From Kitasatospora herbaricolor (lineage in GTDB: Bacteria > Actinomycetota > Actinomycetes > Streptomycetales > Streptomycetaceae): DNA of 64,000 bases. The DNA lies in assembly GCF_030813695.1 (NCBI RefSeq), contig NZ_JAUSVA010000002.1:6448001-6512000 (forward strand), read 5' to 3'. This document shows, in pieces, positions 59,033 through 62,822 of the stretch (positions within the stretch are counted from its first letter, which is position 1; each line of letters opens with the position of its first letter). The notes beneath the pieces were generated by a model, which ran no database searches, was not told where the DNA came from, and was given only the letters and a program-made list of their open reading frames with translations. Made by a program: the position numbers and the translations under genes.

Positions 59033-60076
59033 TCAGCGCCCGGCCGCGCCGGCGCTCCGGGCGGCCTCGACCGCCCGGTGCAGGTCGGTGGTGGCGTCCA
59101 GCGCCGCGGTGAGGGTGACGGACAGGCAGGTGGCGAGCACGAACGCGGCCGCGCGGCGTCCGGTCCGGGGCCGCGGGTGAGGGTCCAGCAGCGCGGCCAC
59201 CCGGCGGGGCACCGGGCCGGCGTGGGCGGCCGGGGCGAGGCCGGGCCGGTCCGGCCGGGGGGCGTGCCCGGCGGCCAGGGCCGCGCGGCCGACCGCGCGG
59301 GCGGTCACCGTCCGGTCGCCGACGGCTGCGGCGGCGGCCTCGTCGGCCCAGCGTTCCAGCTGGTAGCCGATGGGCGCGCGCAGCGTCCGCAGGGCGGGGT
59401 GGACCACGGCCGCGTACTCGGCGGCGGCCAGGAAGAGGTGGTGGCGCCCGGTCAGGTGGGCGCGCTCGTGGGCGAGCAGCGCGGCGCGTTCGGGGGCGGA
59501 CAGGGCGCGCAGCATCCCGCCGGTGACCACCACCCGCCCCGGGCGCCCGGGCAGCGCGAAGGCGTCGGCGCGGTCGTCCGCGAGGACGGCGAGCGGGTGC
59601 TCGGCGGGGGCGGCGGGCCGGGACCGGGCCCTGAGCCGCGCGGCGGGGCCGGCCACGGAGGTGCCGAGGAGGGCGGCGAGGGCGCCGGGGGACAGGCTCC
59701 TCGCGGGGCGGGCCGGGTCGCCGAGGGCGGCGCGGGCGCGGGCCAGGTCCCGGCGGTGGCGCCGGGCGATCCGCAGGGCGAGGGCCGCCGCGGTGGCGAG
59801 GGCCAGGCCGGCGAGGCCCGCGACCGGCGCGCCGCCGGGGGCTCCGGCGGCGATCCAGCGCGGGGAGAGGTGGCCGAGGGCGGCGACCGGCGGCAGCCGG
59901 AGCAGGCCGGTGGCGGCCAGCAGGCCGAGCGAGCAGAGGGTGGCCGCGGCGAGCAGGGCCGCGGTGCCGGTCAGGATCCGGGCGGCGGCCGGCGGCGGCA
60001 GCGCCCGGGCGAGCAGCCGGGCGGCCGGCGCCGCGAGGAAGGGGAGCAGCAGCGGCACCCAGACGGCGACGGTCAT
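59033..60076 (-). CDS. M56-family (BlaR1-like) membrane metallopeptidase
   Basis: A 347-residue membrane protein with about four helices and the zinc site H203-E-R-A-H207 in LLAHERAHLTGRHH, followed by ERWADEAA with a likely third ligand. It lacks the C-terminal penicillin-sensor domain of true BlaR1. It overlaps the BlaI-type gene by ATGA, the standard actinobacterial arrangement in which the protease inactivates the repressor on a cell-envelope or redox signal. Confidence 0.9.
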   Translation of the reverse strand: MTVAVWVPLLLPFLAAPAARLLARALPPPAAARILTGTAALLAAATLCSLGLLAATGLLRLPPVAALGHLSPRWIAAGAPGGAPVAGLAGLALATAAALALRIARRHRRDLARARAALGDPARPARSLSPGALAALLGTSVAGPAARLRARSRPAAPAEHPLAVLADDRADAFALPGRPGRVVVTGGMLRALSAPERAALLAHERAHLTGRHHLFLAAAEYAAVVHPALRTLRAPIGYQLERWADEAAAAAVGDRTVTARAVGRAALAAGHAPRPDRPGLAPAAHAGPVPRRVAALLDPHPRPRTGRRAAAFVLATCLSVTLTAALDATTDLHRAVEAARSAGAAGR

Positions 60077-60612
60077 CGCGGCACGTCTTCCGCCGCGGAG
60101 CGGTCCGTGCCGGTCGCCCTGTTCGCCCCGCTCCCGCCGGTCGTGCCGGGGGCTCCGGCGGAGCCGTCCGGGCCGTCCGGCGTTTCGACCGGGACGCGGG
60201 AGCCCGGTGCGCCGGGGGATCCCGGGGAGCCGGACGGGCCGCCGGCGCGGTCCCCGAGGAGGTCGCGCAGCATCCGCTCGTCCTCGTCCGAGAGGTCGGA
60301 GACGAAGCGCGCCAGTACGGTGGAGCGGTCGGACCCGCGCTCCAGCTCGGTGCGCATCCGGCGGGCGGCCAGGCCGGCCGGGTCCTGGACGGTCGGGACG
60401 TAGGCGTACGCCCGGCCCGCCCTGGTCCGCTCGACCGTGCCCTTCTCGTGCAGCCGGGCGAGGATCGTGGCGACGGTGGTCCGGGCGAGCCCGGTGCCGA
60501 GGGCGGCCTGGACGTCCTGCGGGGTCAGCGGGTGCTCCGCGGCCCAGAGGGCGACCAGCACCTGGGCCTCCAGCTCCCCGGAGGAACGACGGGCCGACGG
60601 CGCTTCACTCAT
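60073..60612 (-). CDS. BlaI/MecI/CopY-family repressor with Gly/Pro tail
   Basis: A 179-residue repressor. The winged helix is LEAQVLVALWAAEHPLTPQDVQ, then GLARTTVATILARLHEKGTVER; the dimerisation helix is STVLARFVSDLSDEDERMLRDLL. The family usually ends here at about 120 residues, but this one has another 60 residues of Gly/Ser/Pro/Thr-rich sequence (GGPSGSPGSPGAPGS). Two tandem GTCTAC-N6-GTAGAC palindromes lie just upstream, so it is probably autoregulated. Confidence 0.93.
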   Translation of the reverse strand: MSEAPSARRSSGELEAQVLVALWAAEHPLTPQDVQAALGTGLARTTVATILARLHEKGTVERTRAGRAYAYVPTVQDPAGLAARRMRTELERGSDRSTVLARFVSDLSDEDERMLRDLLGDRAGGPSGSPGSPGAPGSRVPVETPDGPDGSAGAPGTTGGSGANRATGTDRSAAEDVPR

Positions 60613-60634
60613 GTCGACGTTTCCTCCAGCTGTC

Positions 60635-60671
60635 GTCTACAGTCTCGTAGACCGTCTACGTCACTGTAGAC
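60635..60671. promoter_or_regulatory. Two tandem BlaI-type operators
   Basis: GTCTAC-N6-GTAGAC occurs at 60635-60652 and again at 60654-60671, a 19-bp period. The second extends to 10-bp arms (GACCGTCTAC/GTAGACGGTC). They lie between the divergent blaI-type and dedA genes and could control both. Confidence 0.72.
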
Positions 60672-60724
60672 GGTCCGAGCGCGACCCGCAGGGCCGCCCC
60701 CAACGTACGGGAGGTCCGCCCGCC

Positions 60725-61477
60725 GTGTTCCGGTCGTCGGTGTACACCTGGTCCGCCGCCCAGGCGCAGGCCCTGCAGGAGCACGCCCGGGGCCTCGCCG
60801 CCCCGGCCCTCCCCGGCCCGGGGCACGGCGGGCACGAAGCGCTCGCGGTGAACCTGCTGGACGCCTCCTCCCTGCTGGCCGCCTTCGGCGCCCTGGGCAT
60901 CGCCGTCATCCTGTTCGCCGAGACCGGCCTGCTGGTCGGCTTCTTCCTGCCCGGCGACTCGCTGCTCTTCACCGCCGGCCTGCTCTGCGTCCCCGGCGCC
61001 ACCGACGGCCCCCGGCTCCAGCTCTACCAGGTGCTCCCGGCCGCCGTGCTCGGCGCACTCGTGGGGGCCCAGGTCGGCTACCTGATCGGCCGCCAGGGCG
61101 GGCACGCCCTGCTGCGCCGGTCGAGCAGCAGGAGCCTCCATCACGGCGTCCTGCGCGCCGAGGAACTGCTCGCCCGCTACGGCTACGGCAAGGCGATCGT
61201 GCTGGCCCGTTTCATCCCGGTCGTGCGCACCGTGCTCAACCCGCTCTGCGGCGTCCTCGACGTGCCGCTGCGCACCTTCACCCTCTGGCAGGTGGTGGGC
61301 GGCACGGTGTGGGCCGTCGGGGTGACGATGGCCGGCTACGCCCTCGGATCCTCCGTGCCGGATATCGACCGTTATCTGCTACCCATCATCGGTCTGGTAG
61401 TAGTTGTCTCCGTGATTCCCATTGTTCTCGAACTGTTCCGCGCCCGTAAGGGGCGCCGTGGCGGGGGTGGCGAGTGA
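60725..61477 (+). CDS. DedA-family membrane protein
   Basis: A 250-residue integral membrane protein of the DedA/VTT family (proposed undecaprenyl-phosphate or lipid flippases). Family motifs: FAETGLLVGFFLPGDSLLFTAG, GAQVGYLIGRQGG, RYGYGKAIVLARFIPVVRT (the conserved RF.P..R), and the C-terminal helix. The GTG at 60725 follows GGGAGG; a start at GTG 60848 would give the more conserved 209-residue core. The stop overlaps the PAP2 GTG as GTGA; a lipid-carrier transporter coupled to a lipid-phosphate phosphatase is a sensible pair. Confidence 0.88.
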   Translation: MFRSSVYTWSAAQAQALQEHARGLAAPALPGPGHGGHEALAVNLLDASSLLAAFGALGIAVILFAETGLLVGFFLPGDSLLFTAGLLCVPGATDGPRLQLYQVLPAAVLGALVGAQVGYLIGRQGGHALLRRSSSRSLHHGVLRAEELLARYGYGKAIVLARFIPVVRTVLNPLCGVLDVPLRTFTLWQVVGGTVWAVGVTMAGYALGSSVPDIDRYLLPIIGLVVVVSVIPIVLELFRARKGRRGGGGE

Positions 61478-62187
61478 CCGCCACCCCGCCCCCGGGGCTC
61501 CCGGCCGGGCCGCGCGCGCTGCTCGCCTACGACGGCAGCGGCATCGACGGCGGCCTCTACAGCCGGGTCGTCGGCTGGGCCGACCGGGCCCCGCACTGGC
61601 TGGACGAGCTGGTCAAGGTCTGGTCGGCGGTCGGGCTCGGCCTGTTCGCGCTGCTCATGCTGTACGCCTGGTGGCGGGCCCGCGGCGCCGACTCCGTGGT
61701 GCTGGCCCGGGTACTGGCCTCGCCGTTCGTCGTGATCGTGGCGTACCTCGTCAACTCCGTTTTCAAGAGCCTGGTGGAGGAGGTCCGCCCCTGCGCCCAG
61801 ATCGCCGGCACCGTTTCGCTGGAGACCTGCCCGGGCGCCGGCGACTGGTCCTTCCCCAGCAATCACACGGTGATCGCCTTCGCGGCCGCCGCGGCGCTCT
61901 GGTTCGCCTTCCGCGGGCTCGGGCTGACCGCCCTGGCCTGGACCGGCTGGATCGCGGCCGCCCTGATGGGCCTCTCCCGGGTCTGGGTCGGCGTGCACTA
62001 CCCGCACGACGTGCTGGTCGGCGCGCTGGTCGGCACCGCCGTGGGGGTGCCGCTCGCGCTGGCCGCCGGCCGCGCCGCCCCGCTGGTGGACCGGGGGCGC
62101 GCGGGGCCGCTCGGCGCGCTGCTGGGTGCCGGTCCGAGCGGTTCGGGTGCGCCCCGCGAGACCCCGGCGCGGATGCCGGCGGACTGA
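61474..62187 (+). CDS. PAP2-family phosphatase (undecaprenyl-diphosphatase-like)
   Basis: A 237-residue membrane phosphatase with about five or six helices. The tripartite PAP2 signature is KSLVEEVRP, then PSNHTV, then SRVWVGVHYPHD; PSNH replaces the more common PSGH. It probably dephosphorylates undecaprenyl pyrophosphate or another lipid phosphate at the outer face. It is translationally coupled to the DedA gene by a GTGA overlap. Confidence 0.92.
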   Translation: MTATPPPGLPAGPRALLAYDGSGIDGGLYSRVVGWADRAPHWLDELVKVWSAVGLGLFALLMLYAWWRARGADSVVLARVLASPFVVIVAYLVNSVFKSLVEEVRPCAQIAGTVSLETCPGAGDWSFPSNHTVIAFAAAAALWFAFRGLGLTALAWTGWIAAALMGLSRVWVGVHYPHDVLVGALVGTAVGVPLALAAGRAAPLVDRGRAGPLGALLGAGPSGSGAPRETPARMPAD

Positions 62188-62309: not shown

Positions 62310-62822
62310 ATGCCGTACCGGCTCGACATCACGCAGGGCGAGTGGCCCGCCGAGGAGTTCCGCAAGGGCGTCGAAGGCATCCTGGCCGAGAGCATGGTGC
62401 TCACCCTGGCCACCGCCGGCCCCGAGCGCGGGCCGCACGCCAACCTGGCCTTCTTCGCCTACGACGAGGACCTCGTCCTCTACTTCGTCAGCGAGCGCTC
62501 CACCCGGCACAGCCTGCATCTCGCGGAGGAGGCCAGAGCCGCCGCCACCGTCTTCCTGCCGCCGCCGGTCTTCGGCGAGCAGCTGCGCGGCGTCCAGCTG
62601 ACCGGCAGCGCCTGCGAGGCGTGGGGACGGCAGGCGGAGGCGGCCCTCGCCGCGTACCAGGGCCGTTACCCCTCGTTCGCCCAGGATCCGGACGTCCGCG
62701 AGCAGTTCCTCACCGGGGCGGGGGCCGCGGCGCTCTACCGGCTCCAGGTGGAGGAGCTGACGGCGGTGGACGAGCCGCACTTCGGGCGGCGCAACTACCT
62801 GCGGGCGACGGTCCTGCGCTGA
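62310..62822 (+). CDS. Pyridoxamine 5'-phosphate oxidase-like flavin protein
   Basis: A 170-residue split-barrel protein of the PPOX-like superfamily (MVLTLATAGPERGPHANLAFFAYDED, LYFVSERSTRHSLHL). Such proteins bind FMN, F420 or heme; the exact cofactor cannot be told from the sequence. The end RRNYLRATVLR is unusual but intact. The ATG at 62310 follows GGAGGG. Confidence 0.8.
   Translation: MPYRLDITQGEWPAEEFRKGVEGILAESMVLTLATAGPERGPHANLAFFAYDEDLVLYFVSERSTRHSLHLAEEARAAATVFLPPPVFGEQLRGVQLTGSACEAWGRQAEAALAAYQGRYPSFAQDPDVREQFLTGAGAAALYRLQVEELTAVDEPHFGRRNYLRATVLR

Follow-up and report, generated by a model that had tools for sequence, protein, structure and literature searches.

The Palindromes and Their Flanking Genes

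The 64,000-nucleotide stretch of the Kitasatospora herbaricolor genome analyzed here (the window) holds two perfect palindromes between a gene for a BlaI/MecI-family repressor and a divergent gene pair for a DedA-family membrane protein and a PAP2-family phosphatase, and this intergenic region, its counterparts in related genomes, and the regulatory switch that it may serve are the subject of this study. Palindrome B (60635..60652, no strand assigned; GTCTACAGTCTCGTAGAC) ends 22 bp short of the blaI start codon, and palindrome A (60654..60671, likewise unstranded; GTCTACGTCACTGTAGAC) lies on the dedA side; each matches GTCTAC-N6-GTAGAC with zero mismatches, and, with the single base 60653 between them, the two copies stand in a 19-bp register. 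A sequence-only reading of this DNA had described two 18-bp palindromes in tandem within a 112-bp gap, and both are present at 60635-60671, exact and 1 bp apart. The gap indeed measures 112 bp when counted from the blaI start codon (ATG 60612) to the nearer likely start of dedA (GTG 60725), or 235 bp if dedA starts at GTG 60848.

The repressor (60073..60612, minus strand, 179 amino acids) matches PF03965 (Penicillinase_R) at 76.6 bits (cut-off 22.6). Its nearest solved chain is 2g9w (E 4.1e-8), which we take to be Rv1846c, the BlaI of Mycobacterium tuberculosis, and the nearest named locus is that of Kitasatospora indigofera, with 85% identity over BlaI. Overlapping blaI by 4 bp, in a BlaR1-like position, is a gene for a membrane HExxH metallopeptidase (59033..60076, minus strand, 347 amino acids), which has hydrophobic segments, the motif HERAH at residue 203, and a match to PF01435 (Peptidase_M48) at 48.5 bits. 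A structural model of this protease, built from a six-sequence alignment, was poor (mean predicted local distance difference test score, pLDDT, 55.8) and had no Foldseek match with an E value of 0.001 or below; because the mean pLDDT was low and the fold search gave no usable match, the model is given no weight. The orthologue from locus L019 was omitted from that alignment, as its reading frame (L019 5429-6370) departs from the other orthologues after ∼60 residues, through either an assembly join or gene damage.

On the other side of the palindromes, the DedA-family protein (VTT domain; 60725..61477, plus strand) matches PF09335 at 76.4 bits (cut-off 33.9). Its start is GTG 60725 or GTG 60848: in four orthologous loci (L017-L020) the start corresponds to GTG 60848, and extra DNA is present there in the window and L016. 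The PAP2-family phosphatase gene (61474..62187, plus strand; PF01569 at 86.9 bits, cut-off 27.2) overlaps dedA by 4 bp, and its translation shows K-X6-RP, PSNH, and SR-X5-H-X3-D, the catalytic motifs of the PAP2 family. The two proteins score far below the NCBIfam equivalog cut-offs for UptA (DedA, 52.8 bits against 250) and for undecaprenyl-diphosphatase (PAP2 against the SepP model, 42.6 bits against 250), and their substrate is therefore assigned from family membership; it is probably the undecaprenyl carrier.

Rarity, Geometry, and Conservation of the Site

Under a first-order model derived from the window, 0.0004 exact sites are expected per window and 0.06 per 9.58-Mb genome, and the observed numbers are two and four, the latter from the genome-wide motif scan that the sequence-only reading had proposed. 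When scored with a weight matrix derived from the exact sites, the two palindromes reach 33.2 and 28.7, and everything else in the window stays at 8.7 or less. Degenerate matches (up to three mismatches) are common in the window, at 36 compared with 13.9 expected from shuffles; this excess was considered as a possible wider regulon and rejected, because the matrix scores of these matches are 8.7 or less.

Both palindromes are intact in 6/6 aligned orthologous loci (the window and L016-L020), and across the same six loci the bases of the spacers differ, as does much of the intergenic sequence around the palindromes. These loci also share the divergent layout of blaI-protease and dedA-PAP2, with a PNPOx_N gene after PAP2. 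The spacing is equally constant on a broader scale: wherever exact sites lie up to 200 bp apart, they keep the 19-bp register (31 of 31 distinct pairs, strands merged), as do 22 of 22 tandem pairs of a later listing, counted manually and overlapping the 31. The palindrome pair is real and not a product of chance. That these are chance palindromes, or RNA or terminator elements instead of operators, is an explanation to which we give almost no credence: some sites do lie 3′ of genes, and a perfect palindrome can form a hairpin, but four sites stand where 0.06 are expected per genome, the register is fixed, and a terminator scan of 60560-60900 detected none. A sigma-70 promoter scan of the same interval also detected nothing.

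Within the genus, the exact site occurs in 61 of 70 genomes, with 154 sites compared with 19 for a reversed-pattern control. The base following GTCTAC is A in 76% of arms (94 distinct genus sites retrieved with the N6 pattern); a higher share, 90%, is inflated by loci fetched with a stricter pattern. That stricter motif, GTCTACA-N4-TGTAGAC, is present in 109 of 249 family genomes (including the 70 genus genomes), and its control matches none. A search of 394 genomes across the class found it in six, five of which belong to the family; because this search found only 1 of 354 genomes outside the family, the exact letters of the motif are a family-level feature.

The nine site-negative genus genomes keep BlaI paralogues, as a BlaI search showed, and BlaI beside DedA was not found in the loci read there, which extended ∼1.5 kb in either direction and were not obtained for some of the weaker matches. 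In one site-negative genome (L262), BlaI faces PAP2 with two diverged palindromes between them, again 19 bp apart. In another family of the class, a protease-BlaI pair faces a gene of the function-unknown family DUF347, with a different palindrome, CTTCTACAACATGTAGAAG, in between (L229 1-3156); the next gene at that locus matches PAP2 only weakly (27 bits).

Two further features of the window lie on the dedA side. The block CCAACGTACGGGAGGTCCG (60700..60718, plus strand), between the operator and dedA, is identical in five of the six aligned loci and one base off in L019, and is a candidate promoter or ribosome-binding element. The PNPOx_N-domain gene (62310..62822, plus strand; PF01243 at 31.6 bits, cut-off 28.1) is a conserved neighbor of PAP2, and its membership in the operon is uncertain.

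Genes Downstream of the Sites

The genes that the sites face across genomes were compiled in two rounds. The first batches took all single and tandem sites listed up to genome G036 in the genus, together with all listed sites of other genera, and the sites read later included all 31 listed genus singles and 10 of 22 listed tandems. Gene calling relied on a simple GC-position script, names came from phmmer comparisons with reference proteins, and Pfam confirmed representatives; tandems were merged, and a target was counted if its start lay from -30 to 300 bp downstream of the site.

Of the first-batch loci, 45 of the 56 in the genus and 72 of the 92 in other genera have a gene of one of five families (BlaI, DedA, PAP2, UppP, or DUF347) starting downstream. 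Of the later loci, 18 of the 31 singles, all 10 tandems, and 8 of the 16 from other genera have such a gene. The first-batch figures are partly circular because the reference families were chosen from those batches, and the later figures, which are lower, are the fairer ones; the loci also share ancestry and are not independent. The target families are estimated to make up well under 1% of genes (12 PAP2 and 9 DedA matches in the window's genome), and a binomial calculation at 1% on the first-batch figures gives vanishing probabilities, to be taken as a rough guide only. The site-bearing targets span unlike branches, including DedA, several kinds of PAP2, two kinds of UppP/BacA, and DUF347.

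Sites away from any regulator bear on the alternative of pure autoregulation, in which the operators would control blaI-protease only and dedA-PAP2 would be a bystander. This alternative draws on the closeness of palindrome B, which ends 22 bp before the blaI start, and on the bla divergon, where BlaI is described as repressing its own operon (PMC3305447). Many sites, however, lie upstream of dedA, PAP2, uppP (bacA), or DUF347 and have neither a blaI nor a protease gene inside 1.5 kb: under that restriction, the first batches have one of the four families downstream at 18 of 27 loci of the genus and 39 of 59 of other genera, and the later loci at 12 of 23 and 3 of 10. The sum over all batches is 72 of 119, far more than the small part of a genome that these families make up. 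With a looser rule, requiring only that no BlaI start falls in the interval, the counts are 19/30 and 44/64 in the first batches and 14/27 and 3/11 later. We consider pure autoregulation improbable.

At L083 the site precedes uppP, and a Penicillinase_R gene comes next on the same strand. Beyond the core families, a type I phosphodiesterase-like gene has an exact site upstream in L108 (PF01663), L132, and L177 and is a possible further target. Three loci of one other genus (L141, L285, and L286) have a site near a gene that we read as sensor-kinase-like, with L285 and L286 sharing a second gene, and these sites suggest further targets.

A Proposed Carrier-Recycling Switch

We consider it likely, from the arrangement and comparison of the sequences, that the palindromes are operators of a BlaI/metalloprotease switch that derepresses genes for the recycling of undecaprenyl phosphate. 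In the proposed mechanism, dimers of the adjacent BlaI-type repressor would occupy the paired palindromes and shut both divergent operons, blaI-metalloprotease and dedA-PAP2. Under envelope stress, the membrane metalloprotease would inactivate BlaI, probably via cleavage, and both operons would be derepressed along with distant site-bearing genes (a second PAP2 gene in this genome; dedA, PAP2, uppP/bacA, and DUF347 in relatives). PAP2 and UppP/BacA would then take one phosphate off the diphosphate carrier outside, and DedA would flip the monophosphate carrier back, such that undecaprenyl phosphate is regenerated. The sites, their conservation and geometry, and the genes that they precede are observed; DNA binding and repression by BlaI, its proteolytic release, and the enzyme activities are those expected of the respective families.

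The suggestion in the sequence-only reading that the repressor may also control lipid-carrier recycling is well supported by this comparison, with the tandem kept in 6/6 orthologous loci and with target genes at 72 of 119 sites that have no blaI or protease gene nearby; the control hypothesis is supported for a wider gene set than dedA-PAP2. Its mention of a BlaR1-like sensor is only half borne out: the gene that overlaps blaI encodes a membrane HExxH peptidase, but the protein scores as M48, misses the cut-off for PF05569 (Peptidase_M56), and shows no penicillin-sensor domain.

Several observations weigh against the proposed switch, and they are given here together. The later loci support the target set less than the first batches do. 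Where no BlaI or protease gene is nearby, sites face none of the target families, nor FTR1, at 9/27 genus and 17/59 other-genera loci of the first batches and at 10/23 and 7/10 of the later ones. At five genus loci (L058, L059, L061, L072, and L087) an exact site is placed directly 3′ of DUF347, between converging genes, and two later loci (L303 and L317) repeat this placement. One exact site in the window's own genome (C2:6738540; L022 5541-5558) has the 3′ end of a second protease gene on one side and a MarR-like gene on the other. The genome has four BlaI-family genes, two of the others with similar operators, and hence several candidate binding proteins, and the single occurrence of the stricter motif outside the family is not beside the core families. 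Lastly, the Pfam scan of the 347-residue protease found no C-terminal penicillin-binding sensor domain and, at E up to 0.001, PF01435 only, and its relatives fall below the M56 cut-off of 31 bits: at E up to 0.1, PF05569 scores are 14.9 for L017, 14.8 for L139, and 13.4 for the paralogue in L022, and the paralogue in L025 gives no match. The protease fragment of L229 reaches 19.7.

Other Sites and BlaI Paralogues in the Genome

Apart from the tandem, the window's genome has an exact site at C2:9153754, 43 bp upstream of the second PAP2 gene (L023 4816-5544; Pfam PAP2 at 59.4 bits). The MarR-like gene beside C2:6738540, so named from our own reading, has no Pfam match, and the placement of a site at the 3′ end of a protease gene recurs in L069, L309, and L321. 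A one-mismatch site (C2:6740049) precedes blaI2, which belongs to a second blaI-metalloprotease pair, divergent from Dyp-peroxidase and FTR1 genes (by Pfam; L022 6612-9424). Among the loci read, only 2 of the 12 PAP2 and 1 of the 9 DedA genes of the genome bear a site, and the site is therefore not a general feature of these families.

With four PF03965 genes in the genome, the sites could serve a different BlaI paralogue, or several jointly, so that the adjacent repressor would not be the controller, or not the only one. The sequence upstream of blaI2, GACTACGGCACTGTAGAC, and that upstream of blaI3, ATCTACAACACTGTAGAG, have similar cores, and the helix region ARTTVxTIL is nearly identical in BlaI1 and BlaI2; for the fourth blaI, no site was found in the stretch read. 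We nonetheless regard this as unlikely: the exact tandem accompanies BlaI1-type loci, and in the nine site-negative genus genomes, which retain paralogues, none of the loci read has BlaI next to DedA.

A Metal-Responsive Alternative

A more serious contender, which we hold to be possible but clearly the less probable reading, is that the regulon responds to metal cations that are toxic or out of balance (lead-like, iron) and not to cell-wall antibiotics or carrier shortage. In such a scheme, to which we give the same limited weight, the phosphatases would release phosphate outside to precipitate metal, and DUF347 proteins and FTR1/ILT permeases would move ions. Some sites do lie upstream of genes for FTR1/ILT-type iron permeases, a few adjoin ZIP genes, and the blaI2 pair, with its one-mismatch site, adjoins the Dyp-peroxidase and FTR1 genes. 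Three UppP-DUF347 operons are listed among lead-up-regulated genes in a paper on metals in Frankia, the available passage of which leaves the induced organism unclear (PMC4531530). The NCBIfam model for the CopY copper repressor also matches the window BlaI, but at 29.3 bits against a cut-off of 121.95.

The pbr lead operon of Cupriavidus metallidurans is the nearest known precedent for this alternative: like the site-bearing genes, it pairs a phosphatase for undecaprenyl diphosphate (C55-PP), PbrB, with a transporter of an iron/lead family, PbrT (PMC3431237). It differs in having a MerR-type regulator, PbrR, and a P-type ATPase, and DedA, the commonest first-batch target besides BlaI, has no place in the pbr scheme as it is described there (PMC3431237). 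Furthermore, the window's genome has no DUF347 match, and the class search gave 30 DUF347 loci, none of which has the exact site and several of which adjoin genes that we read as two-component genes. The metal and carrier readings could both be right if metal disturbs the carrier.

Comparison with Known Systems

Most of what is known of BlaI systems concerns beta-lactam resistance genes. The BlaI-BlaR1 and MecI-MecR1 systems of Bacillus licheniformis and Staphylococcus aureus resemble the locus described here in combining a BlaI-family repressor and a membrane metallopeptidase gene with a divergent target operon; their targets, however, are beta-lactamase and PBP2a, whereas here they are probable carrier-recycling genes, and the protease lacks the penicillin-sensor domain. 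As in the window, several operators (OP1-OP3) lie between the genes of the B. licheniformis bla system, and BlaI is described as cleaved there at N101-F102 (PMC3305447). The half-sites differ in their spacing: TAC-N6-GTA in the window is two bases longer than TAC-N4-GTA in the B. licheniformis OP1 oligonucleotide, TACATATGTA, given in the same paper (PMC3305447), and the bla/mec-type core derived from OP1, TACA-N2-TGTA, does not match the window sites.

The M. tuberculosis pair BlaI (Rv1846c) and BlaR (Rv1845c) is a closer structural parallel than BlaI-BlaR1. Like the pair described here, it is actinobacterial, and its BlaR is described as having no extracellular sensor domain; the targets of that BlaI, like the genes of the present site set, reach beyond one operon (PMC5473688). 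The functional parallel is Bacillus subtilis SigM, which controls bcrC and uptA and answers trapped or scarce carrier (PMC11081497). SigM is a sigma factor with the membrane regulators YhdLK, whereas the proposed switch would use a BlaI repressor and a protease. In the open literature of PubMed Central (most subscription papers lie outside it), no title or abstract start among the matches listed concerned a BlaI regulon for DedA, PAP2, or UppP, and the cell-wall-stress section of a Kitasatospora co-culture paper, as available, names none of these genes (PMC12175524).

Implications

More tentatively, sensor-less BlaI-metalloprotease pairs of actinomycetes may form a separate class of envelope-stress switch, for which the signal would be the condition of the undecaprenyl carrier itself or a metal bound to it, with DUF347 membrane proteins as unrecognized parts of carrier recycling or of a metal-linked protection of the carrier; we would rate this broader proposal as rather less likely than its converse. 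If the carrier-recycling switch is correct, DUF347 would be placed in a testable pathway, and the response to metals such as lead may be tied to cell-wall carrier stress. The actinomycetes, makers of many cell-wall antibiotics, would then gain a repressor-protease route to a response known from SigM in Bacillus.
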